DNA from: Halomonas sp. HAL1
GTDB taxonomy: Bacteria; Pseudomonadota; Gammaproteobacteria; Pseudomonadales; Halomonadaceae
Reading direction: 5' to 3'
NCBI RefSeq assembly: GCF_030544485.1
Contig: NZ_CP130610.1
Location: forward strand, 1,054,001-1,118,000
Length of the DNA: 64,000 nucleotides
The stretch's first letter is position 1, and every line of letters begins with the position of its first letter. Below the pieces are notes generated by a model. That model ran no database searches. It was not told where the DNA came from and saw only the letters and a list, made by a program, of their open reading frames with translations. Positions 6,009 through 18,702 of this stretch are shown piece after piece. The translations under genes were made by a program, and so were the position numbers.

Positions 6009-6737
6009 TTAGGAGGGTAATGTTTTTCGAGACAGCCACCAAACGTCAATACCAAAAGAATATAGCAATGAAATCAATGCACTAATGGCCAGCAGGCTGG
6101 CAGCAAAGTGGGAGGTAAGTGGCGTTAACGCCAACAGCAGCGCAACCACCTGCCAGACACATACGGCTTTACGGCGAAAGCTTTCGAACAGCGGTTCTGC
6201 AAGCCAGGGGAACGGCCAACTGGCGGCTACAAACAGGTAGCGCATCCCCCCAATCATCAGCACCCACAGGCCCAGAGACTCTAACCGCAGCAATCCTGCG
6301 CAAAGCAGCAGTATCAGTAGGGCATCCAGCTCCATGTCAAAGCGCGCGCCGAATAGCGAGTGGCTTTTGGTGCGCCTGGCAATCCAGCCATCAACGCCAT
6401 CCAACAGTAGAGCGATCACCGCAATTGCCAACCACTGCCAGATGACCTCTACAAACGCATTGGCGGCGAGCGCACCTGCCAGCAGCGCGACTAATACTGC
6501 GCGGGCAAGCGTTACCCGGTTTGCCCAGCCCAGTGAGCCGTGGGGCCAGAACACCATCACTAAGATAGCTATAAACGTGTAGAAGGCCAAGGCAACCCAC
6601 CAATTGGCCGAGGTAGCCATTAATTGAGGTAATCCTATACCTACAATCATTAGCACCAAGCCGCCCAGCAGTAGCTCTGCAGCGCTATAAAGCCGTTTGG
6701 GTAGTGTCATGGATGAGGCATTTGAAAAAAACGGCAT
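6009..6737 (-). CDS. CDP-alcohol phosphatidyltransferase family membrane protein
   Basis: A 242-aa integral membrane enzyme of the family that moves a phosphatidyl or related group from CDP-diacylglycerol (or a CDP-linked head group) to an alcohol. The catalytic signature is complete: D113, D116-G117, A120-R121, G130, D134 and D138 in the D-x2-DG-x2-AR-x8-G-x3-D-x3-D spacing. About six hydrophobic segments are visible. The acceptor alcohol cannot be assigned. The start at 6737 is tentative; an ATG at 6710 would give a product nine residues shorter. It is likely the first gene of a two-gene operon with the phosphoribosyltransferase. Confidence 0.85.
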   Translation of the reverse strand: MPFFSNASSMTLPKRLYSAAELLLGGLVLMIVGIGLPQLMATSANWWVALAFYTFIAILVMVFWPHGSLGWANRVTLARAVLVALLAGALAANAFVEVIWQWLAIAVIALLLDGVDGWIARRTKSHSLFGARFDMELDALLILLLCAGLLRLESLGLWVLMIGGMRYLFVAASWPFPWLAEPLFESFRRKAVCVWQVVALLLALTPLTSHFAASLLAISALISLLYSFGIDVWWLSRKTLPS

Positions 6738-6930
6738 GGTGGCTCACGAAGCGGCATCGCTGTCCGCAGTTGAAATAAATGATGCAAGTATTTTTATATG
6801 TACCATTCTTGTAGAAGAAGGTAGGGTTGTCTATATGATCAAAGAAAATAGTCTAGTTAGCTTCAAGTGTTGCACATTGTTAATCGAATAATTTCTCTTC
6901 AACCGCTACGCTAAAGATGGTGAGCCATTA

Positions 6931-7113
6931 ATGACTATTCTGCATGAGGCCATTCAAGAGGTGGTCGTCCAGTATGGTAAGGGGCCAAGTCACATAACGA
7001 GCAACCTCGCCTTAATGTGCAGCGCCATGGCCCCACGCTACTTTCAATGGAATGAAATAGAGCTCGGTTTAGTTGAGCTTGTAACGAAAAGGATCGCTCA
7101 TGTCGACGCCTGA
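6931..7113 (+). CDS. Possible small unrecognised protein (60 aa)
   Basis: This 60-codon frame sits in an otherwise empty 362-bp gap (6738-7099) and overlaps the start of the dehydrogenase gene by 14 bases, an arrangement that would allow translational coupling. The product is soluble-looking with no recognised motif. Its ribosome site is weak (GGTGAG). Nothing else convincing was found in the gap. It may be only a chance frame in the leader of the 7100 operon. Confidence 0.25.
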   Translation: MTILHEAIQEVVVQYGKGPSHITSNLALMCSAMAPRYFQWNEIELGLVELVTKRIAHVDA

Positions 7114-8119
7114 CGATGTTGGCAAAAATCTATACGCTGGCAAAAACCGCTGCGCCACCGCCTTCTGGGTGACCAGCCCAGCCCAAGGCGAGTTGCGGGC
7201 TGAGCCTCTGGCGACGCCCGCTCAGGATGAAGTGCAGGTACGCACCTTGTACAGCGGTATTAGCCGAGGCACCGAATCGCTGGTGTTTAACGGTCGCGTG
7301 CCTGAAAGCGAATTTTCGCGCATGCGCGCCCCTTTTCAGTCAGGTGAGTTTCCCGCCCCGGTCAAGTACGGTTACTGCAGCGTTGGTCGCGTTGAACAAG
7401 GGCCGGACGCGCTCTTAGATAAAACCGTCTTTTGCCTGTTCCCCCACCAGGACTACTACACCGTACCTGCTTCAGCGGTGCTTGAAGTGCCTGCCAATGT
7501 GCCCGCTAAACGCGCCGTATTGGCCGCCAATATGGAAACGGCCATCAACGGCGTGTGGGATGCCGAGCCCATGCTGGGCGAGCGGATTTGCGTTATTGGT
7601 GCCGGTGTCGTCGGTGCGCTAGTGGCGTACCTGTGTGCCCAGGTACCCGGCGTCGATGTGCATTTGGTCGACATCAACCCAGCGCGCCGCCAGCTCGCCG
7701 AGCAGCTAGGCGTTGCCTTCGCCACACCTGAACAAGCCCCCCATGATCAAGATTGCGTGATCCATGCCAGCGGCCACTCGGCTGGCTTGCGCCAGGCCTT
7801 GGAGGTAGTGGGTAGCGAAGGGCGCATTATCGAAATGAGCTGGTTTGGCGAGGGCGACGTCGCGATTCCTTTGGGCGGCGCTTTCCACTCCCAGCGGCTG
7901 ACGCTTAAAGCCAGCCAGGTAGGCCAACTGCCACCAAAACTTCGCCCACGTTGGGACTACCAGCGTCGCCTTAGGCTCGCGCTGAGCTTACTGGTGGATG
8001 AGCGGTTGGATGCACTGATCAGCGGTGAAAGCGACTTTAAACAATTGCCTACGCTTGCTAATACGCTGTTTGGGCGCGGTAGTGTTGAGCTCTGCCATCG
8101 GCTGCGATATTCCGCATAA
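7100..8119 (+). CDS. Medium-chain dehydrogenase/reductase (zinc-ADH superfamily, BchC-like type)
   Basis: A 339-aa MDR-superfamily oxidoreductase. The GroES-like N-terminal domain contains YSGISRGTES (51-60), where classical zinc alcohol dehydrogenases carry a catalytic Cys, and the structural-zinc Cys lobe is absent. The Rossmann motif GAGVVG is at 167-172, followed by an acidic residue (D191) after the second strand, suggesting NAD(H) preference. AAGGAT lies just upstream of the ATG. It is first in a run of four same-strand genes (dehydrogenase, PTPS-like, glycosyltransferase-methyltransferase, membrane protein). In that setting it could reduce or oxidise a pterin side chain; this is inference. 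Confidence 0.85.
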   Translation: MSTPDDVGKNLYAGKNRCATAFWVTSPAQGELRAEPLATPAQDEVQVRTLYSGISRGTESLVFNGRVPESEFSRMRAPFQSGEFPAPVKYGYCSVGRVEQGPDALLDKTVFCLFPHQDYYTVPASAVLEVPANVPAKRAVLAANMETAINGVWDAEPMLGERICVIGAGVVGALVAYLCAQVPGVDVHLVDINPARRQLAEQLGVAFATPEQAPHDQDCVIHASGHSAGLRQALEVVGSEGRIIEMSWFGEGDVAIPLGGAFHSQRLTLKASQVGQLPPKLRPRWDYQRRLRLALSLLVDERLDALISGESDFKQLPTLANTLFGRGSVELCHRLRYSA

Positions 8120-8152
8120 CTTGTGTTTTTAAACAATTAATCAGGAGTTTTT

Positions 8153-8551
8153 ATGTTTCGTTTATGCGTTCGTGACCATTTTATGATTGCCCACAGCTTT
8201 AACGGCGAGATATTTGGCCCCGCCCAGCGTACCCATGGCGCCACCTATGTGGTGGATGTGGTTTTCCAGCGCCCTGAGCTGGATGAGGATGGCTTAGTGA
8301 TCGATATTGGCCTTGCCAGCGAAACAGTCAAAGAGGTATTGGCAGGCTACAACTTTCAAAACCTGGATGACGTAAGTGAATTTAAAGGTAAAAACACCAC
8401 CACCGAATTTATGGCTAAGGTGATTTTCGACCAGCTAGCCAAAGCGATCGGCGAAGGCAAAATGGGCACCACCGCCCAGGGCATTACCCATATGGAGATC
8501 AAACTGCACGAGTCTCATGTAGCCTGGGCTAGTTACGAAGGCGCGCTATGA
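8153..8551 (+). CDS. 6-pyruvoyl-tetrahydropterin synthase/QueD-like protein, active site degenerate
   Basis: A 132-aa protein with the tunnelling-fold layout of PTPS/QueD: an early His (H14 in FMIAHSF), a histidine in THGATY, a K-N-T-T-T-E-F segment and a C-terminal Glu in LHESHVAW that would anchor a pterin. Family enzymes normally have a catalytic Cys and an H-G-H zinc pair. Here the HGH is H28-G-A30 and no Cys precedes it, so the third zinc ligand and the catalytic thiol are missing; H9 might substitute. It should therefore not be assumed to make 6-pyruvoyl- or 6-carboxy-tetrahydropterin. The stop overlaps the next gene's start (ATGA). Confidence 0.85.
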   Translation: MFRLCVRDHFMIAHSFNGEIFGPAQRTHGATYVVDVVFQRPELDEDGLVIDIGLASETVKEVLAGYNFQNLDDVSEFKGKNTTTEFMAKVIFDQLAKAIGEGKMGTTAQGITHMEIKLHESHVAWASYEGAL

Positions 8552-10512
8552 GTCGGCGTTTTACCTTGATCGTTGCCGGTGACCCTGCTCAGCGCACCGG
8601 TGGCTATATCTACGATGCGCGTATTGTCTCGGCCCTACGTGACCAGGGCTGGGAGATTGACGTCGTGGGCCTGGCAGGCGTGTTTCCCGATGCGGACGCC
8701 GAAGCGGCAGCGGCACTAGCTCAAGCGCTTGAGACACTTCCCGACCATGCGGCGGTGGTGATCGATGGCTTGGCCATGGGGGCGCTGCCTGACGTGGTTG
8801 CCCAGCATGCAACGCGGCTGGACATTACCGCGCTGCTGCACCATCCCTTAGGCGATGAACTGGGCCTTGATGAGGCTGATCAGCAGCGCTTTCATCGCAG
8901 CGAGTTAACCGCGCTGGCTTCTGTGGCGCGCACTATTGTCACCAGCCATTTTACCGCTCGGCGTTTGCCGGAACTGGCAGCGCACTACGCCATACCCATC
9001 AATGCAAGTGTCACCGTAGTGGAACCGGGCGTGGCCCAGGCACCGGTTAGCCCAGAAGCAGAAGCTGGTGAAACGCTGCGCCTGCTATGTGTGGCAACGC
9101 TAACGCCGCGCAAGGGGCAAGATGTTCTGGTTCAAGCGCTAGCGGGAGTGGCCGGTGATCAATGGCAGTGCGACTGCTATGGCGGCGCGCGAGACGCGGC
9201 GTTTACGCAACGCGTGCAACAGCTGATTGATCAGAACGGTTTACAAAGCAGTGTGCACCTCCACGGCGAGTGCGATAGCGAGACGTTGGAAGCGGCTTAC
9301 CAACACGCGCACGCATTAGTGCTGCCTTCCTGGTACGAGGGCTATGGCATGGTGGTCACCGAAGCCTTGGCCCATGGCCTGCCGGTGATTACCACCACCG
9401 GTGGCGCGCTACGCGACACCTTGCCAGAAGGTGCAGGTTTAAGCGTTGAACCGGGCAATGTTGCGGCGCTTCAAGACGCGTTGAGCCGATTTTGTAACGA
9501 TGCAAAACTGCGTCAGCAACTGCGTCATGGCGCTGCGCAGGCCCGTGGCCAGTTAAGCGATTGGCAGGCGGCGAGCGAGGCCTTCGCCGCGGCGTTAACA
9601 GCGCAAAACCATGCCGCCAATGATTCGCTAACCTTGCGCGCTGGGAGTCAGTTTGAATCCGATTGGCTAACGCTGCGCGAGGCCGCTGATTTCGCCTCAC
9701 GCAGCCAGCGCCTTGCTCAGTTCGCTTCAGAGTGGTTGGAGGCACGTAGCTCAACGCCGATGATCGCGGATCTTGGCTGTGGCCGGGGGAGCAATATGCG
9801 ATTTCTGGCCCCGCGTTTTAGCGCCCACCAGCGATGGGAGTTGATTGACCACGATGCCATTTTGTTAGCGCAGGCGCGCCAGCGTGCCGCCGGGTTAAGC
9901 GATAGCCAAGGGCAGCCTGTGGCCGTCGAAACGCACTGTGTATCGCTGGAGCCGCTTGACGATGTACCGCTGGGCGATGCGCACCTAGTCACGGCGTCGG
10001 CGCTGCTTGATCTGGTTTCTCAGCAATGGATCGAGGCATTAGTGGTGCGCTGTGACGAGCAGCAACAAGCGCTTCTAATCGCGCTGAGCGTGACCGGAGA
10101 GTGGCACTTTATCGATGCCCAGGGCGAGCCGTTGCTGGATGATGAAGACCACTGGCTGTTGGCTATGTTTATTGCCCACCAACAGCGCGATAAAGGCTTG
10201 GGCGATGCGCTGGGCGGTCAGGCTCAAGAGGTGTTAGTAGCTACCCTTGAGAAGGCCGATTATCGCATTGAGCAGGACGATACCCCATGGCAACTGACTG
10301 CTGGCAACCATGACCAGCAGCCGTTAATGATGGCGCTGTTGGAAGGTTGGGCTGAGGCCGCCACCGAACAAGCCCCTGACGCCGCGGCACGCATTGCCAG
10401 CTGGTTGGAGCAGCGCCAGCAGGCGGTGGCCAACGGCGAGCTGGGGATTTGGGTGGGGCACCGTGATCTCTTTGCCATCCCCCCGTTTGCCAAGCCTCAG
10501 GAAGAGGCCTAA
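8548..10512 (+). CDS. Fusion protein: GT4-type glycosyltransferase plus SAM-dependent methyltransferase
   Basis: A 654-aa two-domain protein. Residues 1-350 are a GT-B glycosyltransferase: LCVATLTPRKGQDVLVQAL starts the donor-binding half, and the GT4 signature E264-x7-E272 lies in SWYEGYGMVVTEA. Residues about 360-600 form a class I methyltransferase with motif I IADLGCGRGSN (406-416) and an acidic end of strand 2 (LIDHD). It starts inside the PTPS-like gene (4-base overlap), so the two are translationally coupled. There is no signal peptide; it should act in the cytosol. The context suggests it glycosylates and perhaps methylates a small product made by the flanking genes; acceptor and sugar are unknown. 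Confidence 0.85.
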   Translation: MSRRFTLIVAGDPAQRTGGYIYDARIVSALRDQGWEIDVVGLAGVFPDADAEAAAALAQALETLPDHAAVVIDGLAMGALPDVVAQHATRLDITALLHHPLGDELGLDEADQQRFHRSELTALASVARTIVTSHFTARRLPELAAHYAIPINASVTVVEPGVAQAPVSPEAEAGETLRLLCVATLTPRKGQDVLVQALAGVAGDQWQCDCYGGARDAAFTQRVQQLIDQNGLQSSVHLHGECDSETLEAAYQHAHALVLPSWYEGYGMVVTEALAHGLPVITTTGGALRDTLPEGAGLSVEPGNVAALQDALSRFCNDAKLRQQLRHGAAQARGQLSDWQAASEAFAAALTAQNHAANDSLTLRAGSQFESDWLTLREAADFASRSQRLAQFASEWLEARSSTPMIADLGCGRGSNMRFLAPRFSAHQRWELIDHDAILLAQARQRAAGLSDSQGQPVAVETHCVSLEPLDDVPLGDAHLVTASALLDLVSQQWIEALVVRCDEQQQALLIALSVTGEWHFIDAQGEPLLDDEDHWLLAMFIAHQQRDKGLGDALGGQAQEVLVATLEKADYRIEQDDTPWQLTAGNHDQQPLMMALLEGWAEAATEQAPDAAARIASWLEQRQQAVANGELGIWVGHRDLFAIPPFAKPQEEA

Positions 10513-10516
10513 GCCG

Positions 10517-12517
10517 ATGGGGTTTGCTCAGACGTTGTGCACCCGGCTAGGCGCGTACATTCGCCCATGCCTGCAAAGCCCATGGCTACGGCGGGTGGTG
10601 CTCAGTATTGCCTTGCTAGGGGCCGTGTTGTTGTGGGTCGACCCCCGGGCCATCGTGGCGGAAGTGCAGCGCTTCTCGGCTGGTTGGGTAGTGCTGGCGT
10701 TAGTCATCAGTACGCTGCAGATCATGCTCTGCGCTTGGCGTTGGCAGTTTACCGCTGGGTTGATTGATGTACCGCTGCGGTTTGCTTATGCCCTGCGAGA
10801 GTACTATTTGGCGCTGCTGGTTAATCAGCTGTTGCCCGGTGGAGTACTGGGCGACGCCGGGCGGGCACATCGTCATGCTGCTCAGGCGCAGTCACGCGGT
10901 CGCGCTTGGCGAGCGGTCATTATTGAGCGCGCCTCGGGCCAAGTGGCTGTGGTCGTGCTAACGCTCGCGGCATTGCTGCTATCACCGCTCTGGCATGCCG
11001 CGCTGGGAGTGTCAGTACTTACTACGGTGGGCTTAGGCGTCGTGGCTGCTCTCGCCGTGGTTATCGCCAGCGGCCTGCTGTTGCGCCAACATATAAGCCA
11101 TCGGTTGGCACGGCTGCCGCATTGGTGCCAAGCCCTGGCGCGCGACGTTAAACGTGGCTTATGGCGGCGTAATGTATGGCCTCAGCAACTATTCTCGTCG
11201 CTGGTCATTGTGCTGAGCTACGGCCTAGTGATGGTGTGTGCGGCGCGGGCAATTGGCGTTGAGCTAGCGGTATTGGAGGTGCTGGCACTGGCACCGGTGT
11301 TGCTGTTGGCGATGTTGGTGCCCTTTTCCGTGGCCGGATGGGGTTTACGGGAGGGCGCTGCGGCTGGTGTCTGGGCGCTGGTAGGACTGCCGCCCGCCCA
11401 AGGCGTGGCGGTGTCGTTGGCCTACGGTGTGCTGGTGCTGCTGGCGAGCCTACCAGGTATTTGGGTGGCGCTGAGCCGTCGCGAGAAAGCGCAGCCCTCA
11501 GGCGGTGGTATCCCGCAGATGCAGGTCGAACAGCGTGTCGTCGCCACAGCGGAAGGTGCGCGTGGGCGGGCGCAGCGCACTCTCAAGCGTCTGGATGGGC
11601 GTCATTTGAAGCCCTGGTCTGCCGGAGCCGATCAGCAGCGGGGCGACCAGCAGGTGCAGCCGGTCAACGGCGCCTGCTTCGATAAACTGAGATACCGTGA
11701 TACCGCCGCCTTCAATCAGCACACGGGGCAGGCCTTTATCGGCCAGCAGGGTGATGACATCAAGCGGATTGAACTGGCCATTGGCACCCAGTGGCAGCAC
11801 GCAACGTTGAACGTGGGCAGGCAGCGTCGTGTTCGCTACCCCAGGCCCCACAATCAGCAGTGTCGGCGCGGCACTGTTACACAGCAGCGCCAAGTCATTA
11901 GGGATACGGCCGCGTGGGTCCAGCACCACCCGCGTCGGGTTAGTACCGCTAACGTGTCGCACGGTCAGTTGAGGATTATCGGCGCTGGCGGTGCCGGCGC
12001 CCACGACCACCGCGTCGACCAGGGCGCGCAGGCGGTGCAGGTGAACCAAACTTTCATGGCCGTTGATGTAGTGGGAGTGGCCGCTTTCCGTCGCGATGCG
12101 ACCATCAAGGCTTTGGCCCAATTGAGCCACGACCCAGGCCAGGCGACTGGCCAGCGGGGTCAGGCAGTCGAGCAGCTCACGCGCCTCAACACTGACCGGC
12201 TGATCCGTTTGCCACTCGCCGCTTGGCGTCACGGTGATCGCCACCTCGCAAGGGCGCCGATGACGCAGAGCCGAGAGCCATTGCCAGGCATCGACCAGCG
12301 AAATAGTGCCGCTAGTATTCATAACACTGCTATTAACACCCGTATTGACATGGGAGTCGGGCATGACGCCTCCGCGCTAATAAATCCGCTTCATCATGCG
12401 GGCTCTACTTGGTCTAGGGCAAGTAGTTCAGAGCCAGTAGCCCGAGCAACTCGTTCAGCGCGAGCGCGTAATAACCCCCACGCCAGGAAGCCAGGAGGCC
12501 TACATGTACCAGATTGA
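10517..12517 (+). CDS. UPF0104/lysylphosphatidylglycerol synthase-type membrane protein, anomalous C-terminus
   Basis: The ATG at 10517 has AGGAAGAGG upstream and follows the previous stop by 4 bases. About 320 residues form the multi-helix integral membrane domain shared by MprF flippases and UPF0104 proteins, ending near SLPGIWVALSRREKAQPS (about 11460-11500). The frame then has no stop until 12517, and the last 340 or so codons are the exact antisense of the RibD-like reductase gene, giving a Gln/Arg/His-rich tail with no family likeness. Either the stop has been lost or a one-base indel near 11470 hides it (a TGA lies one frame away at 11472). The functional protein probably ends near 11500. 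It could flip or export the glycosylated product of the cluster. Confidence 0.65.
   Translation: MGFAQTLCTRLGAYIRPCLQSPWLRRVVLSIALLGAVLLWVDPRAIVAEVQRFSAGWVVLALVISTLQIMLCAWRWQFTAGLIDVPLRFAYALREYYLALLVNQLLPGGVLGDAGRAHRHAAQAQSRGRAWRAVIIERASGQVAVVVLTLAALLLSPLWHAALGVSVLTTVGLGVVAALAVVIASGLLLRQHISHRLARLPHWCQALARDVKRGLWRRNVWPQQLFSSLVIVLSYGLVMVCAARAIGVELAVLEVLALAPVLLLAMLVPFSVAGWGLREGAAAGVWALVGLPPAQGVAVSLAYGVLVLLASLPGIWVALSRREKAQPSGGGIPQMQVEQRVVATAEGARGRAQRTLKRLDGRHLKPWSAGADQQRGDQQVQPVNGACFDKLRYRDTAAFNQHTGQAFIGQQGDDIKRIELAIGTQWQHATLNVGRQRRVRYPRPHNQQCRRGTVTQQRQVIRDTAAWVQHHPRRVSTANVSHGQLRIIGAGGAGAHDHRVDQGAQAVQVNQTFMAVDVVGVAAFRRDATIKALAQLSHDPGQATGQRGQAVEQLTRLNTDRLIRLPLAAWRHGDRHLARAPMTQSREPLPGIDQRNSAASIHNTAINTRIDMGVGHDASALINPLHHAGSTWSRASSSEPVARATRSARARNNPHARKPGGLHVPD
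11498..12364 (-). CDS. RibD C-terminal-type reductase (dihydrofolate-reductase fold), no deaminase domain
   Basis: A 288-aa protein. Residues about 75-285 match the RibD reductase domain: AQLGQSLDGRIA (80-91), the NADPH-site region VVGAGTASADNPQLTVR (120-136) and VLIEGGG (215-221). In riboflavin synthesis this domain reduces the ribosylamino-pyrimidine to the ribitylamino form. The zinc deaminase domain of bifunctional RibD is absent; the first 75 residues resemble nothing I recognise. It is divergent from the GTP cyclohydrolase II-like gene, sharing a 139-bp promoter region (12365-12503). Its 3' end meets the membrane-protein gene convergently. It may reduce a pyrimidine or pterin that keeps its 2-amino group. 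Confidence 0.85.
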   Translation of the reverse strand: MPDSHVNTGVNSSVMNTSGTISLVDAWQWLSALRHRRPCEVAITVTPSGEWQTDQPVSVEARELLDCLTPLASRLAWVVAQLGQSLDGRIATESGHSHYINGHESLVHLHRLRALVDAVVVGAGTASADNPQLTVRHVSGTNPTRVVLDPRGRIPNDLALLCNSAAPTLLIVGPGVANTTLPAHVQRCVLPLGANGQFNPLDVITLLADKGLPRVLIEGGGITVSQFIEAGAVDRLHLLVAPLLIGSGRPGLQMTPIQTLESALRPPTRTFRCGDDTLFDLHLRDTTA

Positions 12518-13607
12518 ACGAGCTATTTTCGATATCCGTCGCGGATTGCCAGTAGTGGTAAATGCCGGTGAGCAGCGTTTGCTAGTGCAGGCACTGGAAG
12601 GCAGTGAATCAGTCGAAGCGCTTGCTCGGTTAGCAGGCGCGCGGCCTTCGCTGGTGCTTACCCGTCACCGCTTGGCAGCCATGGGCGTAACGTTAGCCGC
12701 TGAAGCAGCCAGTTTGCCGCTCGCGACCAGGATAAGCACCAATGAGCTGCATGGCTTAGCCACGGCGGAGGCGCTTTCGCAACCTGCGGGTGGGCTGCTA
12801 AGCGGCTTAAAGCCAGCGGGTTTAGCCGAACTAGGGGCCGTTACGTTGATGCGTCGCGCGCTGTTAATTCCAGCAGCGCTATGTGCTTTTGTCAGCAAAG
12901 AGGCCGCTGCGAATATCGAGCAGCAGCTAGCAGAAGGGCGGCTACTGGAAGTTACCGCTAAAGACGCTGAGCACTGCTTGGCCGGTGCGCCGGGCATGCT
13001 GAAGCGCGTTAGCGAAGCACATATTCCCTTGGAGGATGCCGCTGAAAGCCGCTTTGTGCTTTTCCGTGAGCCGGACGGCTTACGCGAGCATGTTGCCGTC
13101 GTTATTGGTAAGCCGGAGAGTTGGGAAGGTGCGGTGCCACTGCGCATGCACTCAGCGTGTTTAACCGGTGACCTGTTTGGCAGTTTGCGCTGTGACTGCG
13201 GCGAGCAATTACGCAATGCAGTCGCCGATATTCAGGCCATGGGCGGCGGTGTGCTGCTTTATTTGGCGCAAGAGGGGCGGGGCATCGGCTTAGCCAATAA
13301 ACTGCGCGCCTACACCTTGCAAGATGGTGGCCTGGATACGGTGGATGCCGACCAAGTGCTTGGTTTTGGGGACGATGAGCGCCAGTACGCCGTGGCGGTA
13401 GATATGCTCAACGCTCTTGATATTGAGCAAGTGCAGCTGCTGACCAACAATCCGCTGAAAATGGAAGCGCTGCGCCAGGGCGGTATCGAGGTCGTCTCGC
13501 GCCAGGCGCTGTACGGCAGCGTTACCGATCATAACCAGCGCTATCTAAACGCCAAGGCCACCCGCGGCGGGCATCTGTTAGAAGACGTACTAAGCGGGCA
13601 GCGTTAA
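12504..13607 (+). CDS. GTP cyclohydrolase II homologue with an extra N-terminal domain
   Basis: A 367-aa protein. Residues about 185-360 are the RibA domain: zinc ligands C219, C230 and C232 in the C-x10-C-x-C pattern, the QEGRGIGLANKLRAY segment with Y270 (equivalent to E. coli RibA Y105) and LLTNNPLKM. Retention of that Tyr argues for the normal formate-releasing reaction on GTP; a Streptomyces isozyme with Met there stops at the formamidopyrimidine. The first 185 residues occupy the place of the DHBP synthase domain in RibBA proteins but look degenerate (IRRGLPVVV near residue 11 is the main echo). Likely a pathway-specific second copy rather than housekeeping ribA. Confidence 0.85.
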   Translation: MYQIERAIFDIRRGLPVVVNAGEQRLLVQALEGSESVEALARLAGARPSLVLTRHRLAAMGVTLAAEAASLPLATRISTNELHGLATAEALSQPAGGLLSGLKPAGLAELGAVTLMRRALLIPAALCAFVSKEAAANIEQQLAEGRLLEVTAKDAEHCLAGAPGMLKRVSEAHIPLEDAAESRFVLFREPDGLREHVAVVIGKPESWEGAVPLRMHSACLTGDLFGSLRCDCGEQLRNAVADIQAMGGGVLLYLAQEGRGIGLANKLRAYTLQDGGLDTVDADQVLGFGDDERQYAVAVDMLNALDIEQVQLLTNNPLKMEALRQGGIEVVSRQALYGSVTDHNQRYLNAKATRGGHLLEDVLSGQR

Positions 13608-13645
13608 CCGCCGCAAACTCAAGCTGCTCCAATCGTGAAGTGGTT

Positions 13646-14419
13646 TTAGTTGGTTAGCGGCGGTAGGTGGGCAGTTTCTGTCACGACTGCCGCTAACTGG
13701 CGGGCATAATGCATTACCAGCCGCTCGCCTAATTCGGCGCTGGCGTGGCTGGCATCACCGGCCACACCATGGGAGCTTAAATCTTCCGCTAACCAGGCAA
13801 ACGCTGCTGCACCCTCTGCACTCACTAAGGCATTGCCAGCGGGCGCCGCAGGCGGTGTGGCTTGATAGTGATCTAGCTGGACAAGCATTGGTGCCAAATA
13901 GCGCATCATGGCAGTTTCGAGTAGCCCACCGTGTAACCCGTAACGCAGCTCATCAGCCTCAATGGCGCCTTCTAACGGTGGCAGCCGCGTGTAGGTGGCT
14001 TTTACCACGCGCATTCCATGCCGCCGCCGCAGGGTTAAGCCTGCTAAATCCATCACCGCTTTATTGCCACCGTGGCTATTAAGTAGTACCAGACGACGAA
14101 TGCCAGCGCGGGCCAGGCTGTCGCCATACGCTTCTAGCGTGGCGATCGCCAATGGCGCTGGTAGGCTCAGCGTGCCTGGGAAACTGGCGTGCTCATCGCT
14201 TGCGCCGACGGCAATGGCGGGTAGGCAGATCACATTAAGGTGCGGATCAAGCTCCTGCAGCATGGCGGCTTGCAGACCTTCGCCAATGGTCAGGTCTGTA
14301 GCTAGAGGAAGGTGGGTGCCGTGTTGTTCAATGGCGCCGAGTACCAGCACCGCTACCGGGTCGCGTTGGGCGAACTCGGCTAACTGCGGTGCGGTGAGCG
14401 TTTGCCAGTGGTGAATCAT
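13646..14419 (-). CDS. Creatininase-family amidohydrolase
   Basis: A 257-aa metal-dependent amidohydrolase of the creatininase/ArfB family. Metal-site motifs are E31-x-H33 in AIEQHGTHLPLATD with D42, NSHGGN at 114-119, and H163...E168 in LHGGLLETA. Characterised relatives open creatinine or deformylate a riboflavin/F420 precursor (archaeal ArfB); mycofactocin clusters also carry one. It converges on the GTP cyclohydrolase II-like gene but lies 21 bases after fkbM, so it is probably transcribed with opgG and fkbM. A deformylase or ring-opening role in the neighbouring pyrimidine/pterin pathway is plausible but unproven. Confidence 0.85.
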   Translation of the reverse strand: MIHHWQTLTAPQLAEFAQRDPVAVLVLGAIEQHGTHLPLATDLTIGEGLQAAMLQELDPHLNVICLPAIAVGASDEHASFPGTLSLPAPLAIATLEAYGDSLARAGIRRLVLLNSHGGNKAVMDLAGLTLRRRHGMRVVKATYTRLPPLEGAIEADELRYGLHGGLLETAMMRYLAPMLVQLDHYQATPPAAPAGNALVSAEGAAAFAWLAEDLSSHGVAGDASHASAELGERLVMHYARQLAAVVTETAHLPPLTN

Positions 14420-14440
14420 GAAATGAAAAGCCTTTAGGGT

Positions 14441-15280
14441 TTAAACATTGTTGTGGATATTGTTGTGAACATTGTTCTGAAGCAACTGATGATCCGAGCG
14501 GCAGGCGTAGAGATCGCCAGAGGCTAGCTCGTCAGCACCAGCGCTTAGCCATTCGGTCATCGCTTGCGGCGTTTGCCACTCGGCCCAAAGGAAATGGCGC
14601 TGCTCTCCAGCGACCACGTTATAGCGATACTCGCCAAGACGACTTAAATGGTTAACACAGTCGTGGTTGACCGCTAATGCACCAGCCACAAACTCCACCG
14701 AAAGCGCGGCCACCGGGCTGCTTAGTCCTGCCAGCACCTCTGCTTCAAAGCCCTCCACGTCAATTTTGATAAAGCTGGGCTCACCATACTCTTCAATTAA
14801 CGTATCCAGCGTGGTGACCGGTACCCGCAAGCGCTGTTCCCAGCGCACTTGGCTAAAGCCTGCATTGCGCTCGCCAATCTGTTCGCGCCATTCAGTGGCC
14901 AGGGTGGAAAGCGTCGGGTTGCCGGTGCTAATAGCGATGTCGGCAAAGCCCTCTGTTGGACCAGCCGCCATGGGGAGCAGCGTGATGCTTTTCGGCCTAA
15001 CCAATCGCTTAAACCACTTGGCGAGATCAGGCTGGGGCTCCAGGGCAATCACTTTTGCACCTAGCGCATGAAAAGCCGCGCTGCGGTCACCTAAGTGAGC
15101 GCCAATATCAAAGGCGATAGTGCCGGGCTGAATAAACGGCTGGTAGAGGCGCTGGAGCCCTCGCTGACGCCCCGGGCGCCAATAAATAAACAGCGAGCGA
15201 GCAAGCCCGCCCGCGCTCCGCAGCCGTTGCAGCGCCATGCGCCGCATTAGGCGGGTTTTCTGAATATCTTCATCCGGCAT
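14441..15280 (-). CDS. FkbM-family methyltransferase
   Basis: A class I SAM methyltransferase of about 279 aa. Motif I is FDIGAHLGDRSAAF, followed by strand-2 acid in VIALEPQP and the FkbM-typical FIKIDVEGFE. The family O-methylates sugars and polyketides. I place the start at the ATG at 15280, which overlaps the end of opgG by 11 bases; a GTG at 15310 would add ten residues. Neither has a clear ribosome site, so translational coupling to opgG is likely. Position between opgG and the creatininase suggests a sugar or glucan substrate, but this is inference. Confidence 0.8.
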   Translation of the reverse strand: MPDEDIQKTRLMRRMALQRLRSAGGLARSLFIYWRPGRQRGLQRLYQPFIQPGTIAFDIGAHLGDRSAAFHALGAKVIALEPQPDLAKWFKRLVRPKSITLLPMAAGPTEGFADIAISTGNPTLSTLATEWREQIGERNAGFSQVRWEQRLRVPVTTLDTLIEEYGEPSFIKIDVEGFEAEVLAGLSSPVAALSVEFVAGALAVNHDCVNHLSRLGEYRYNVVAGEQRHFLWAEWQTPQAMTEWLSAGADELASGDLYACRSDHQLLQNNVHNNIHNNV

Positions 15281-16847
15281 CGGGATACCAGACGTAATTC
15301 CATGTTTCACTAACGGGGTCGTCGTTCAGCATGAGTCGCAGGCGAACATCACTGGGTTGGTCGCTTGCGGGCAGCCGAAAGCTCGCTCGCCAGCCGCCAT
15401 TGGGGAGTGCGGTTACCTGGGGCAGTTGTACCTCGCCCTGGTGGGTGCTGATATCCAGCTCGACAGGTTGGTCGGCGGTGATATCCTCAAGCGCTCCGCC
15501 CTGGAAGTCGACAATGAACTGACGCTCCTCTGGCGTCGCCGAGTCCGCTTGCCCCGGCACGCCGGCACTGCCATGGCGGGTGCGGATCACACGGCCAAGG
15601 TGGTGCTCTTCCGGCTGCGTGTTGAGCGTGTGCGTCAGGTAGTGGAGGCGACGGGATTCGCCAGCATTTAACGCATCATCCGCGACCCAGTAAGCAACGA
15701 TATTGTCGTGAGTTTCATCGGGTGTCGGAATTTCGACCAGTTCCACGTGGCCCGGCCCCCACGCATCTAACGGTACCACCCACTGACTGGGGCGGCGGTG
15801 GTATTGTGCTTCGATATCAAGGTAGCGGTTAAAGTCACGCTCCCGCTGCATCAAGCCAAATCCTTGGGGAGAGCTATCAGCAAACGTCGAAGTGCGTAGC
15901 TGTGTTGGGTTGGTGAGCGGGCGCCAGATCCACTCGTCGCTACCGGTATGCATCAGCAGGCCGTCGGAGTCATGTACCTGGGGGCGGAAATCATCGGGAC
16001 GCTCACGGCTTGCCTCGCCGTAAGTGAACATACTGGTGAGCGGCGCAACCCCCAGCTTGGCAATGTCTTCGCGGGCAAACAGTTCCGCTTCCACCTCTAC
16101 CTGCGTTTTTTCACCGGGTTCAATAATAAATCGATAGGCACCGCTGACAGAGGGGCTGTCCATTAACGCTAATAGCTCAATCTGTTTGGCGTCTGCGCTG
16201 GGTTTATAAAGCCAAAATTTGCGAAACGCCGGAAACTCTTCACCCTCAGGCGAGGCGGTGTCGATCGCTAGCCCGCGGGTGGATAGTCCGTATGCTTGGT
16301 CGCGCCCCACTATGCGGAAGTAGCTAGCACCGAGAAAAACGGCAAACTCGTCGGCGTACTCTTCATTATTTAGGGGGTAATGCAGACGAAACCCGGCGTG
16401 GTCACTGCCAGATAAATCGTGCTCTTTCAGCTTTTCGGCATTGCCATCATAGGAGTAGTCTTCCGCCGAAAAGAGAAGCGGGGAGGCTGTGTCGTTTTCG
16501 ATCACATTGAGTGCAACCGGGGTTTGAAAGAGAAAGCCGCTGTGAAATAGCTGCAGGCTAAAGGGACTCTCATTGCGCCAATAGGCGTGATCAGGATCAA
16601 AGCGAATTTGCCGGTAGGTATCGTAATTGAGTTCACGTAATACCTCAGGCAGCGTCTCTTCAGGGGTTTGATAAGGCGCTTCAGCAAGCTGTTGGGCGCG
16701 CTCAATGACGGCGCTGAAATGTTTGTCGTCGTCGGCATAGGCGGTTGAAGCCACCGCACAGCCGAGTACAACTATCCATTTACTCGCTATCCACTTACCA
16801 GCTTGCCAATTACCAACCTGCCACCTGCAAACACGGCTAAAACGCAT
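15270..16847 (-). CDS. opgG: Periplasmic glucan biosynthesis protein OpgG/MdoG
   Basis: A 525-aa periplasmic protein of the OpgG/OpgD family needed for osmoregulated periplasmic glucan backbone maturation. The ATG at 16847 has AAGGAT eight bases upstream, better than the open-frame start at 16940. It yields a Sec signal peptide ending at STAYA/DD. The mature part begins with FSAVIERAQQLAEAPY and contains FDPDHAYW, both OpgG-like; the plain Sec signal favours OpgG over Tat-exported OpgD. The membrane glucosyltransferase opgH is not in the window. A divergent membrane sulfatase-like gene, possibly OpgB-like, starts 226 bases away. Confidence 0.88.
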   Translation of the reverse strand: MRFSRVCRWQVGNWQAGKWIASKWIVVLGCAVASTAYADDDKHFSAVIERAQQLAEAPYQTPEETLPEVLRELNYDTYRQIRFDPDHAYWRNESPFSLQLFHSGFLFQTPVALNVIENDTASPLLFSAEDYSYDGNAEKLKEHDLSGSDHAGFRLHYPLNNEEYADEFAVFLGASYFRIVGRDQAYGLSTRGLAIDTASPEGEEFPAFRKFWLYKPSADAKQIELLALMDSPSVSGAYRFIIEPGEKTQVEVEAELFAREDIAKLGVAPLTSMFTYGEASRERPDDFRPQVHDSDGLLMHTGSDEWIWRPLTNPTQLRTSTFADSSPQGFGLMQRERDFNRYLDIEAQYHRRPSQWVVPLDAWGPGHVELVEIPTPDETHDNIVAYWVADDALNAGESRRLHYLTHTLNTQPEEHHLGRVIRTRHGSAGVPGQADSATPEERQFIVDFQGGALEDITADQPVELDISTHQGEVQLPQVTALPNGGWRASFRLPASDQPSDVRLRLMLNDDPVSETWNYVWYPDAG

Positions 16848-17073
16848 GGGCGAAATCCTTATCGAGTGAAGGCCTGCAAAACGTTTGGCAATAAGCCAAG
16901 CAGTACGTGAAATTTTTACACAATAACTATACGATTGCATGCGGACGTACAGGATTATTGCGTTCTATTCCTTGCTCTTTTCTCTTGCGCTTGGGTACAC
17001 ACTCTTAAAGACCGAACATGGAGAGGTCGTACTTCAGACACTGTAAGCTAAAGCAGGTACAAATGAGAATGCG

Positions 17074-18702
17074 ATGATTCGAATATTATTAACGTCCTTA
17101 CTGCTGAATGTCCTGCTCGTTGCGCCGCTATGGTGGCGGTTTGGAGAGATCGATGCCCATTTGATCGCTTGGGAGGCGTTTATCATTGCGCCCCTTATGC
17201 TGTTGCTTCCCGTCGGTCAGGCGCGTCGTGTCGCCGGTGTTGGGCTTGTCAGTTGGATCATGTTGGCGACAGCTGTGAATTTAGGCACTGCCGCTACTCA
17301 CATGGCGTTTGCCCGGCCACTCAACCTCTATCTTGACGTACCTTTGCTGCGCTCCATTTATCACTTATTAGTAGGTAATGTAGGTCAGTTTTTGGCGGTT
17401 TGCGCAATGCTGGCAGGGGCTGCCGTGCTGCTTGGTATCGCCCTAGGCTTAGTGAGACTACTACTTCCTCCCGTCACTTACTCGATTAAACGGCTGCCCG
17501 GTGTCGCTGCGTTGACGCTATTAGTCATTGCCACCATCGGTACCGCACTTGAACTTAACGGTGTGCGGCTGGTGGATAGCGCCCGTTTGCCGATGGTCAA
17601 CAGCACACGGTTTCAATGGCAGCAAATGGCCGATACTCACGCCGCGCGCTTGGCCTTTACCGCGCAATTGGAGGCAGCGCCGCTGGAAAGTCAGCGGTTA
17701 CCTGGGCTCGATGGACACAATGTGCTGCTGACCTTTATTGAGTCTTATGGCGTCTCTGCGCTGGATAATGCCCGTTATGCAGACGTTCTGCTGCCGACCC
17801 TTGCCGATATGCAGCAGCGGCTAGAGGAGCGCGAGCTTCATGTTGTCTCCGGGTTGTTGGCGTCGCCGATTCGTGGCGGGCAATCCTGGCTGGCCCACGC
17901 AACAGCGCTCAGCGGGCGTTGGATTGATAACCAGCTGTGGTACCAGTTGATGTTAGACAGCGGCCACTCCACCTTGATTGATGATTTCAGCGCTACCGGC
18001 CAGCGGACCTTGGCAGTCATGCCCGCTATTACCCTGGCATGGCCGGAAGGGGAGGCCTACGGCTTCGATCAAATTGCCGCGGCAAAGGGTATCGACTATG
18101 CCGGGCCTGCGCTCAACTGGGTGACCATGCCCGATCAGTTCACCCTCGACTATACTCAGCGCCATTTGCTGGGTGAGTCGCCGGTGTTTGCCCAACTGGC
18201 ATTAATCTCTAGCCATGCCCCCTGGACGCCTATTCTGCCGGTGATTGATGAGTGGTCTTTGATTGGGGATGGCAGCATTTTTGCGCCCTGGGAGAACGCT
18301 GGCGACCCGCCAGAAGTACTGTGGCAGGACATTGAACGTATTCGTGACCACTATGCCTGGTCGGTGGACTACGCTGTAAAAGTGGCCGGACGCTGGGCCG
18401 AACGAGTGGTGGATGACCATACCTTGATGATAGTACTGGGTGATCATCAGGCCGCGCCATTGATTACCGGCGACGATGCCAGCGCAGCGGTACCCGTGCA
18501 TATTATCAGCGGTGATCCAGCGCTATTGGCGCCGTTTATAGAGCGTGGCTTTATTCCCGGCACGCTACCCGCGCTGGAGCAGGCAAGTCACGCGCCCAAG
18601 ATGAGCCAACTGCGCCACTGGCTGCAGGATGATTTTGGTGAGTTAACAGATGATACAGACACTCGCCCGGATACAAGGACGACCACAAGGACGCAGCAAT
18701 GA
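17074..18702 (+). CDS. Membrane-anchored alkaline-phosphatase-superfamily enzyme (sulfatase/phosphoglycerol transferase-like)
   Basis: A 542-aa protein. Four or five hydrophobic segments cover residues 1-165 and a periplasmic sulfatase-like domain follows. The metal/nucleophile region is LLTFIESYGVSALD, and later ALISSHAPWTPI and ILGDHQAA match conserved metal-site segments of LTA-synthase/OpgB-type enzymes. Such enzymes add phosphoglycerol or similar groups to periplasmic glucans or lipids, or cleave sulfate and phosphate esters. Its position divergent from opgG makes glucan decoration attractive. The stop overlaps the manC start (ATGA), so the two are co-translated. Confidence 0.75.
   Translation: MIRILLTSLLLNVLLVAPLWWRFGEIDAHLIAWEAFIIAPLMLLLPVGQARRVAGVGLVSWIMLATAVNLGTAATHMAFARPLNLYLDVPLLRSIYHLLVGNVGQFLAVCAMLAGAAVLLGIALGLVRLLLPPVTYSIKRLPGVAALTLLVIATIGTALELNGVRLVDSARLPMVNSTRFQWQQMADTHAARLAFTAQLEAAPLESQRLPGLDGHNVLLTFIESYGVSALDNARYADVLLPTLADMQQRLEERELHVVSGLLASPIRGGQSWLAHATALSGRWIDNQLWYQLMLDSGHSTLIDDFSATGQRTLAVMPAITLAWPEGEAYGFDQIAAAKGIDYAGPALNWVTMPDQFTLDYTQRHLLGESPVFAQLALISSHAPWTPILPVIDEWSLIGDGSIFAPWENAGDPPEVLWQDIERIRDHYAWSVDYAVKVAGRWAERVVDDHTLMIVLGDHQAAPLITGDDASAAVPVHIISGDPALLAPFIERGFIPGTLPALEQASHAPKMSQLRHWLQDDFGELTDDTDTRPDTRTTTRTQQ

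Follow-up and report, generated by a model that had tools for sequence, protein, structure and literature searches.

Genes in a 64,000-nucleotide stretch of the genome of Halomonas sp. HAL1 (hereafter the window, from contig NZ_CP130610.1) probably form a dedicated biosynthetic cluster that branches from the riboflavin route before deamination and leads to a decorated pyrimidine or pteridine. All seven protein families that a preliminary description of this DNA had named at 7100–14419 were recovered from the open reading frames and in Pfam and NCBIfam scans, and gene D, absent from that first list, is the eighth member of the conserved unit. The host genome, of the Vreelandella/Halomonas group, measures 4.44 Mb. 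The association of the genes is beyond chance, as seen in their shared order in relatives and their co-occurrence. The members of the unit, with the letters used throughout, are as follows.

6009–6737, minus strand: D, CDP-alcohol phosphatidyltransferase (PF01066, 52 bits), divergent to the other genes
7100–8119, plus strand: E, MDR-family dehydrogenase (family scan), the marker for the distribution searches
8153–8551, plus strand: F, PTPS-like T-fold protein of the SCO6650 (PDB 3D7J) type (PF01242, 93 bits)
8548–10512, plus strand: G, GT4 glycosyltransferase fused to a class I S-adenosylmethionine (SAM) methyltransferase (Pfam/NCBIfam)
10517–12517, plus strand: H, UPF0104/LPG_synthase_TM protein, flippase-like, 666 aa (PF03706, 139 bits)
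11498–12364, minus strand: I, RibD_C reductase without a deaminase domain (PF01872, 139 bits)
12504–13607, plus strand: J, GTP cyclohydrolase II with an N-terminal extension (PF00925, 185 bits)
13646–14419, minus strand: K, creatininase-family amidohydrolase, candidate formamidase (PF02633, 209 bits)

Of 37 genomes of the same genus (the HAL1 genome counted), 33 have the reductase I with an identity of at least 60%; it lies in two pieces on one contig in G032 (68% and 75%), and G002, G009 and G015 hold only weak, housekeeping-type matches. Across 20 fetched loci, 19 from the same genus and one from another family, the order D to K is constant, the exceptions being a stretch that is cut and starts at E (L041), a locus with K about 4 kb further off (L047), one in which J is only partly matched (L051) and the locus of the other family, which runs from D to I without J and K (L050). 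The linkage that the preliminary description had envisaged in other genomes is thus conserved. When E, F and I were searched for in the same 349 genomes of the phylum, with limits of 1e-15, 1e-8 and 1e-25, respectively, E was present in 22. F reached its loose limit in 72 genomes; 22 of them score 6.5e-33 or better, with the next at 1.9e-14, and those 22 are exactly the genomes with E. I reached its limit in 52 genomes, 21 of them at 6.3e-50 or better (next 1.6e-30), all of which have E. The corresponding log10 p values, −34.6 for E/F and −32.1 for E/I, hold if the genomes are independent, which they are not, and are weakened by relatedness and by the placing of the cut-offs at the score gaps afterwards. 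I is still present in G342, some 62 kb from E and F.

The residue that governs substrate choice in I sets the cluster reductases apart from RibD. The lysine of bacterial RibD/RibG (BsRibG Lys151) recognises the deaminated substrate, fungi have threonine and archaea asparagine at this position, and the T35K mutant of yeast RIB7 prefers the deaminated substrate (PMC3631187, excerpt). Among 98 cluster I proteins the position is Gln in 69, the window included, His in 17, Ser in 2, Ala in 1 and unread in 9, while the lysine is kept in the ribD of the same genome and in all nine non-cluster RibD proteins read (L258–L266). Taken with the published work (PMC3631187, excerpt), the Gln or His therefore supports reduction without deamination, in agreement with the earlier proposal that GTP is opened and reduced but not deaminated. 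No deaminase domain was found in I, PF01872 being its sole match at 1e-3, and among solved structures it is closest to the stand-alone reductases 6p8c and 2azn, with RibD 2b3z behind them. The motif SLDGR.A is present in 72 of the 98 proteins and GG in all 98.

Riboflavin genes proper lie elsewhere in the HAL1 genome. A second RibD, with the lysine, is found at C1:1336056 and cyclohydrolase II matches at C1:1337546 and C1:4024959; ribD and a 418-aa cyclohydrolase frame, probably ribBA (its RibB part judged by eye), adjoin near C1:1336056–1338100, and ribA stands at C1:4024959. The window genes are thus not the only ribA and ribD copies, the circumstance in which the preliminary description would have given up its proposal. 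No flavin mononucleotide (FMN) riboswitch was detected, no Rfam family reaching threshold in 6500–15500. These other copies, the altered residue of I, its missing deaminase domain and the absence of the riboswitch rule out a housekeeping riboflavin identity. The same four observations, together with the tight co-occurrence of I with E and F, make it most improbable that J and I, homologous as they are to riboflavin enzymes, are spare genes that raise flavin output or secretion with their neighbours as mere passengers.

The enzymes that would open GTP are more varied. J of the window carries KLRAY, with Tyr at the product switch position, and [KR]xRAY is present in 61 of 64 J proteins; the cyclohydrolase of Streptomyces fungicidicus has KLRAM, with Met at the switch. 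The NF006456 (PRK08815) model gives J 337 bits, under its cut-off of 464. SCO6655 of Streptomyces reportedly forms a formyl intermediate owing to Met where other enzymes have Tyr. Beside the haloarchaeal core, the gene for GTP cyclohydrolase III (GCH III) overlaps the start of E in four of nine regions, three from Haloarcula and one from Natrarchaeobaculum, with PF05165 confirmed by Pfam in two of them; a second Natrarchaeobaculum record lists the GCH III–E pair too. GCH II and GCH III are not related enzymes, and a first step of one kind has thus been drawn from separate families: a Tyr-type GCH II in the window, a Met-type GCH II with a creatininase in S. fungicidicus and GCH III in haloarchaea. 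In a Natrarchaeobaculum locus (L179, 8240–11458), a hypothetical gene and an IS5 transposase come after the GCH III–E pair and neither F nor G is matched; the cluster there may be broken.

K shows the patterns of its family, ExH...D in 61 and NxHGGN in 60 of 62 relatives, and can be aligned to creatininase 1q3k; the ArfB model gives it 18.9 bits against a cut-off of 180. A protein once annotated as a creatinine amidohydrolase, BrbF, is a formamidase for the formyl intermediate (PMC9478397, excerpt). In the first step of the pathway we propose, J would open GTP to 2,5-diamino-6-ribosylamino-pyrimidinone 5'-phosphate, and K may strip the formyl group where the opening enzyme leaves one; in the second, I would reduce the ribosyl chain to ribityl with the 2-amino group still on. 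These two putative steps are supported by the residues, by the recruitment from different families and by published enzymology.

The sole PDB match of F is 3D7J (SCO6650 of Streptomyces coelicolor), which covers the full length (residues 1–132, E 7.6e-48). The catalytic Cys and the HGH zinc motif, which we take to be the PTPS/QueD signature, are replaced in the window by Ala and HGA, and the C...HGH signature is present in 0 of 107 cluster F proteins. HGA or HGT is found in 103 of the 107; L082–L084 have Glu at the Cys position and H.H.Y, L097 is out of register, and five haloarchaeal F proteins that were aligned are all of the Glu type. By contrast, the ring-anchoring Glu, at what is presumably its position in the PTPS family, is likely to be kept, since a loose pattern finds it in 104 of 107 proteins and it is visible in the tails of the other three. 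These residues lead us to reject F as a true PTPS, and they do not support the role of pterin maker that the PTPS-like protein had been given earlier. SCO6650 itself is reportedly without zinc, without the catalytic triad and inactive as a PTPS; many records label proteins of its type 6-carboxytetrahydropterin synthase. The alignment of E has no invariant Cys, so the usual zinc ligands, which we assume to be cysteines in MDR enzymes, seem lost.

A conventional pterin pathway from GTP cyclohydrolase I, in which F would make a tetrahydropterin like PTPS/QueD, E would reduce its side chain, I, by a fold like that of DHFR, would be a dihydropterin reductase and the GT4 enzyme would glycosylate, as happens to pterins in cyanobacteria and green sulfur bacteria, might be suggested by the profile of F, by the weak match of I to dihydrofolate reductase 1cz3 (E 0.0008) and by the pteridine glycosyltransferase known from Chlorobium tepidum (PMC5683033, excerpt). 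We consider it unlikely in view of the missing C...HGH signature of F, of the motifs of I and its far better score with ribosylaminopyrimidine reductases, and of the cyclohydrolases seen beside the core, which are of types II and III (type I was not searched for).

In the branch from riboflavin synthesis that we favour, the third step would be a conversion of the pyrimidine by F and E, perhaps closing or modifying a second ring; the GT4 and methyltransferase activities would then decorate the pyrimidine or pteridine, and D and H would finally attach the product to the membrane or move it through. These last three steps, like a product that is glycosylated, methylated and exported, or a pterin, are conjectured from the gene families.

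Elsewhere in the HAL1 genome the PTPS family is matched only by two neighbouring stretches of a single 282-aa frame (C1:2270544–2271290; L186, L187), and no separate QueD-type match was seen. Lone F proteins of the SCO6650 type occur near cupin genes on two Streptomyces plasmids (L165, 9001–9426; L166, 9001–9399), with no further cluster profile match within 9 kb of F.

Beyond Halomonadaceae the unit loosens. E is found in 16 of 274 genomes of a class sample (E ≤ 1e-20), and a scan of named genomes with the E alignment gave at least 593 pattern matches, at least 586 of them confirmed, of which the best 80 were used; the titles among these 80 include Gamma-, Beta- and Alphaproteobacteria, Acidobacteria, Gemmatimonadota and Polyangiaceae, with many metagenome bins. 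The core also recurs in Actinomycetota and haloarchaea. Altogether 115 loci (20 + 15 + 80) were compared, a count of loci and not of organisms, as at least L034/L088, L039/L094, L044/L092 and L072/L151 share contigs. Profile matches were D 92, E 115, F 107, G 106, H 70, I 98, J 64 and K 62. Of 62 loci from outside Halomonadaceae, 44 have at least 6 kb on either side of E (both L072 and L151 are in this set), and within them E is accompanied by F in 39, G in 38, I in 37 and D in 32, followed by H and YceI (16 each), J and N (13 each), K (12) and FkbM (10). These partner counts define E, F, G, I and D as the core and J, K and H as accessories. Outside Halomonadaceae the seven-gene set is therefore no fixed unit: H, J and K stand together in only 4 of the 44 loci (L076, L111, L112 and L128).

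E, F and G occur with I in Rhizobium (L167), Methylosinus (L168), Microbacterium (L170), Thiodictyon (L171) and on a Rhodobacteraceae plasmid (L175); D is also present in L167, L170 and L171 and missing from L168 and L175. The nine haloarchaeal regions gave profile matches for E in 9, F in 8, a G-type gene in 8, D in 6 and K in 2, and none for H, I or J. The archaeal riboflavin route makes a reduced, non-deaminated intermediate already, and the lack of I from the archaeal clusters fits this. Two genomes of about 1.0–1.1 Mb, 96% and 99% complete (L079 in G311 and L080 in G199), retain D, E, F, G, H and I, which points to a benefit that persists in reduced genomes. E-like frames only were seen in Rhodococcus (L183) and Nonomuraea (L182).

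Several observations weigh against a dedicated branch from riboflavin synthesis. No recognised enzyme supplies the carbons for a second ring, and a Tyr-type J should, judged by its switch residue, already release formate, which would leave K unneeded as a deformylase. The Gln and His of the cluster reductases differ from the residues tested in PMC3631187 (excerpt). J, K and H are away from most cores outside Halomonadaceae. S. fungicidicus (L176) has D, E, F, G, H, J and K with no I match within about 9 kb of F, an Arthrobacter locus (L174) has E, F and G only, with no I profile match, and at L072/L151, L120, L126, L141 and L144 E stands without nearby F and G. In the phylum sample, G403 has E and F without a strong I, and the E match contains one TGA in G407, G578 and G652 and is split in two in G530, F in these genomes being free of TGA.

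Two more genes of the window are possible accessory members:

14441–15310, minus strand: L, FkbM-family methyltransferase (PF05050)
17074–18702, plus strand: N, large membrane protein (no Pfam match at 1e-3)

The motif DxxDGxxARx8GxxxDxxxD, which we take to be the signature of the CDP-alcohol phosphatidyltransferase family, is present in D of the window and in 90 of 92 relatives. L lies beside D in Rhizobium sp. SL42, and a relative of N in the Rhizobium cluster is annotated as 'sulfatase' (N-profile match 4.5e-162; a frame in L171, 2.3e-148). The GT4 and methyltransferase parts of G, fused in the window, are two adjoining genes in many other taxa, and in L167, L168, L170, L171 and L176 the equivalents of G are separate GT4 and methyltransferase-type genes. 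Periplasmic glucan genes also adjoin the cluster: MdoG is encoded at 15270–16940 of the window, and FkbM, MdoG and a ManC-type mannose-phosphate gene lie downstream of the cluster. Genes like mdoH stand by the cluster in many relatives (e.g. L052:4941–6890), and an annotated mdoH adjoins E in Methylosinus (L168:6079–7881). YceI-family genes near the core include L079:11211–11786, L103:7543–8097, L167:12026–12565 and L171:11528–12085, and cytochrome b561 genes are near it in 3 of the 44 loci outside Halomonadaceae, neighbours that hint at a redox or membrane link.

The recurrence of D, H, FkbM, N, YceI, MdoG and MdoH families around the core, and the FkbM, MdoG and ManC-type genes after the cluster in the window, would also suit an envelope glycolipid cluster in which a membrane lipid is assembled and flipped by D, G, H, L and N, and F, I, J and K act on a nucleotide-derived head group unrelated to riboflavin precursors. 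We regard this as improbable: E is accompanied most steadily by F, G and I, the residue that governs substrate choice in I is indicative of a ribosylaminopyrimidine, and the haloarchaeal regions yield no H profile match. A lipid linkage of a product derived from riboflavin precursors is possible nonetheless, and was considered because the families of D and H handle lipids and YceI is near the core in 16 of the 44 loci. The CDP-alcohol phosphotransferase family usually acts on lipid substrates, and the known YceI members are, we believe, lipid-binding. In its most specific form, the product would be a new membrane-bound lipid with redox or light activity, a phospholipid or archaeal lipid that carries a glycosylated, methylated ribityl-diaminopyrimidine or ribityl-pterin as its head group, with D acting on a CDP-activated lipid, H flipping it outward in bacteria and the Halomonas flippase frame kept open so that translation reaches J. 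We hold this version to be speculative and rather unlikely, a little more so since no H was found near the nine haloarchaeal clusters.

After its membrane domain the H frame continues without a stop through all of I in antisense (about 290 C-terminal codons of H are antisense to I); its end, at 12517, lies 13 nt beyond the ATG with which J begins (12504). The same open course of H, in codon register with I on the opposite strand, is seen in 43 Halomonadaceae loci, of which at least three are repeats; in 6 of the 43, H ends 9 to 303 nt before the annotated start of I. Five other convergent Halomonadaceae loci do not have H open (L070, L116, L117, L121 and L157), and L105–L107 have I with no H match. 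Where a J start was recognised (34 loci), H stops exactly 13 nt into J in 26 and 33 to 165 nt before J in the other 8; no J start was recognised in nine open loci. Among the matches listed, 111 of 120 relatives of H have 610–677 aa, in a search restricted to proteins of at least about 366 aa, which therefore cannot show short forms.

The codons of I that would make a stop in the antisense frame (TTA, CTA and TCA) number 8 in 12636 in the open loci, six being the stop of H itself and two lying beyond it. Such codons account for 2.1 to 3.3% in E, F, G, J and K of the same loci and for 1.4% (260/18382) in 55 I genes where H is not open. In Halomonadaceae without the open frame, individual I genes contain 7 (L070), 6 (L116), 7 (L157), 8 (L105) and 1 (L107) such codons, and those of L106, L117 and L121 contain none, so that a single gene proves little. 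With the first 110 codons of I dropped, 42 loci show 0 stop-making codons where 205 are expected, and 14 lineages, thinned to less than 45% third-position identity, show 0 where 71 are expected (log10 p about −31), a comparison conditional on loci chosen for their openness. Control genes gave observed and expected numbers of 282/364 (E), 636/687 (G), 487/450 (J), 367/299 (K) and 499/403 (D). The chance of openness of one I gene is below 1% at these rates, and 43 of the 48 convergent Halomonadaceae loci are open. The nested frame is thus a statistically strong case of two long frames on both strands of the same DNA.

Selection on the sequence of the antisense tail was considered and rejected, the third positions of I not being clearly more conserved than those of the neighbours: their excess, with composition allowed for, is 0.147 against 0.102 to 0.182 in seven other genes (42 loci). 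We therefore claim selection for openness and not for the sequence of the tail. Most simply, this would be explained by a need for translation to run on as far as J, either for coupling or to prevent transcription from terminating too early; alternatively, the antisense tail of H may itself be functional. The arrangement of H, I and J, as predicted from the frames, resembles a noncontiguous operon, in which a gene of the opposite strand lies inside an operon; there the crossed stretch is an internal untranslated region (PMC7154746, excerpt), whereas the H frame of the window stays open. Antisense proteins have been reviewed (PMC7457138, excerpt).

The nearest known system is that of SCO6650 and SCO6655 in S. 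coelicolor, whose biochemistry is said to be the work of Spoonamore and co-workers, and we know of no product for a cluster of this type. The full-length match of F to 3D7J connects it with the window, as does the S. fungicidicus plasmid NZ_CP023408, which encodes a CDP-alcohol enzyme, a dehydrogenase, a PTPS-like protein, GT4, a methyltransferase, an LPG_TM frame, a creatininase and a ribA with the Met switch. The window differs in the Tyr of J, in the fused GT4-methyltransferase and in having a RibD_C gene, with no RibD_C detected near the S. fungicidicus cluster. SCO6655 appears in a table of a metabolic-model paper (PMC2853524, excerpt).

Other systems share single features. The pseudoiodinine (psd) and toxoflavin (tox) pathways also divert a GTP cyclohydrolase II and a RibD homologue to a secondary metabolite; the seven psd annotations listed in the excerpt of PMC9911603 are without MDR, PTPS-like, GT4, CDP-alcohol or UPF0104 proteins, and the route drawn there passes through deaminated ribitylaminouracil. 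Archaeal GCH III with ArfB, and BrbF of Sinorhizobium, to which K is likened by description, likewise couple a formyl intermediate to a formamidase (PMC9478397, excerpt), but feed riboflavin, whereas the window cluster has its own reductase and decorating enzymes. Biopterin is made from the product of GTP cyclohydrolase I. The pteridine glycosyltransferases of Chlorobium and cyanobacteria also modify a GTP-derived ring, but act on biopterin (PMC5683033, excerpt), in contrast to the type II and III cyclohydrolases and altered PTPS seen here. The diversion of riboflavin precursors is of a known kind. We found no description of this cluster, and no product named for it, in the open-licence literature of PubMed Central; the earlier statement that no such pathway had been described holds to that extent, with a partial precedent in SCO6650/SCO6655 of Streptomyces.

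If the pathway is as proposed, proteins of the SCO6650 type would do something other than their annotation as 6-carboxytetrahydropterin synthase implies. A 2026 review of bacterial pterin signalling states that the mechanism by which pterins cross membranes is unknown (PMC13259868, excerpt); H would be a possible carrier should the product prove to be a pterin. Kept across several bacterial phyla and haloarchaea, the pathway would be a good place to look for a new cofactor, lipid or signal.

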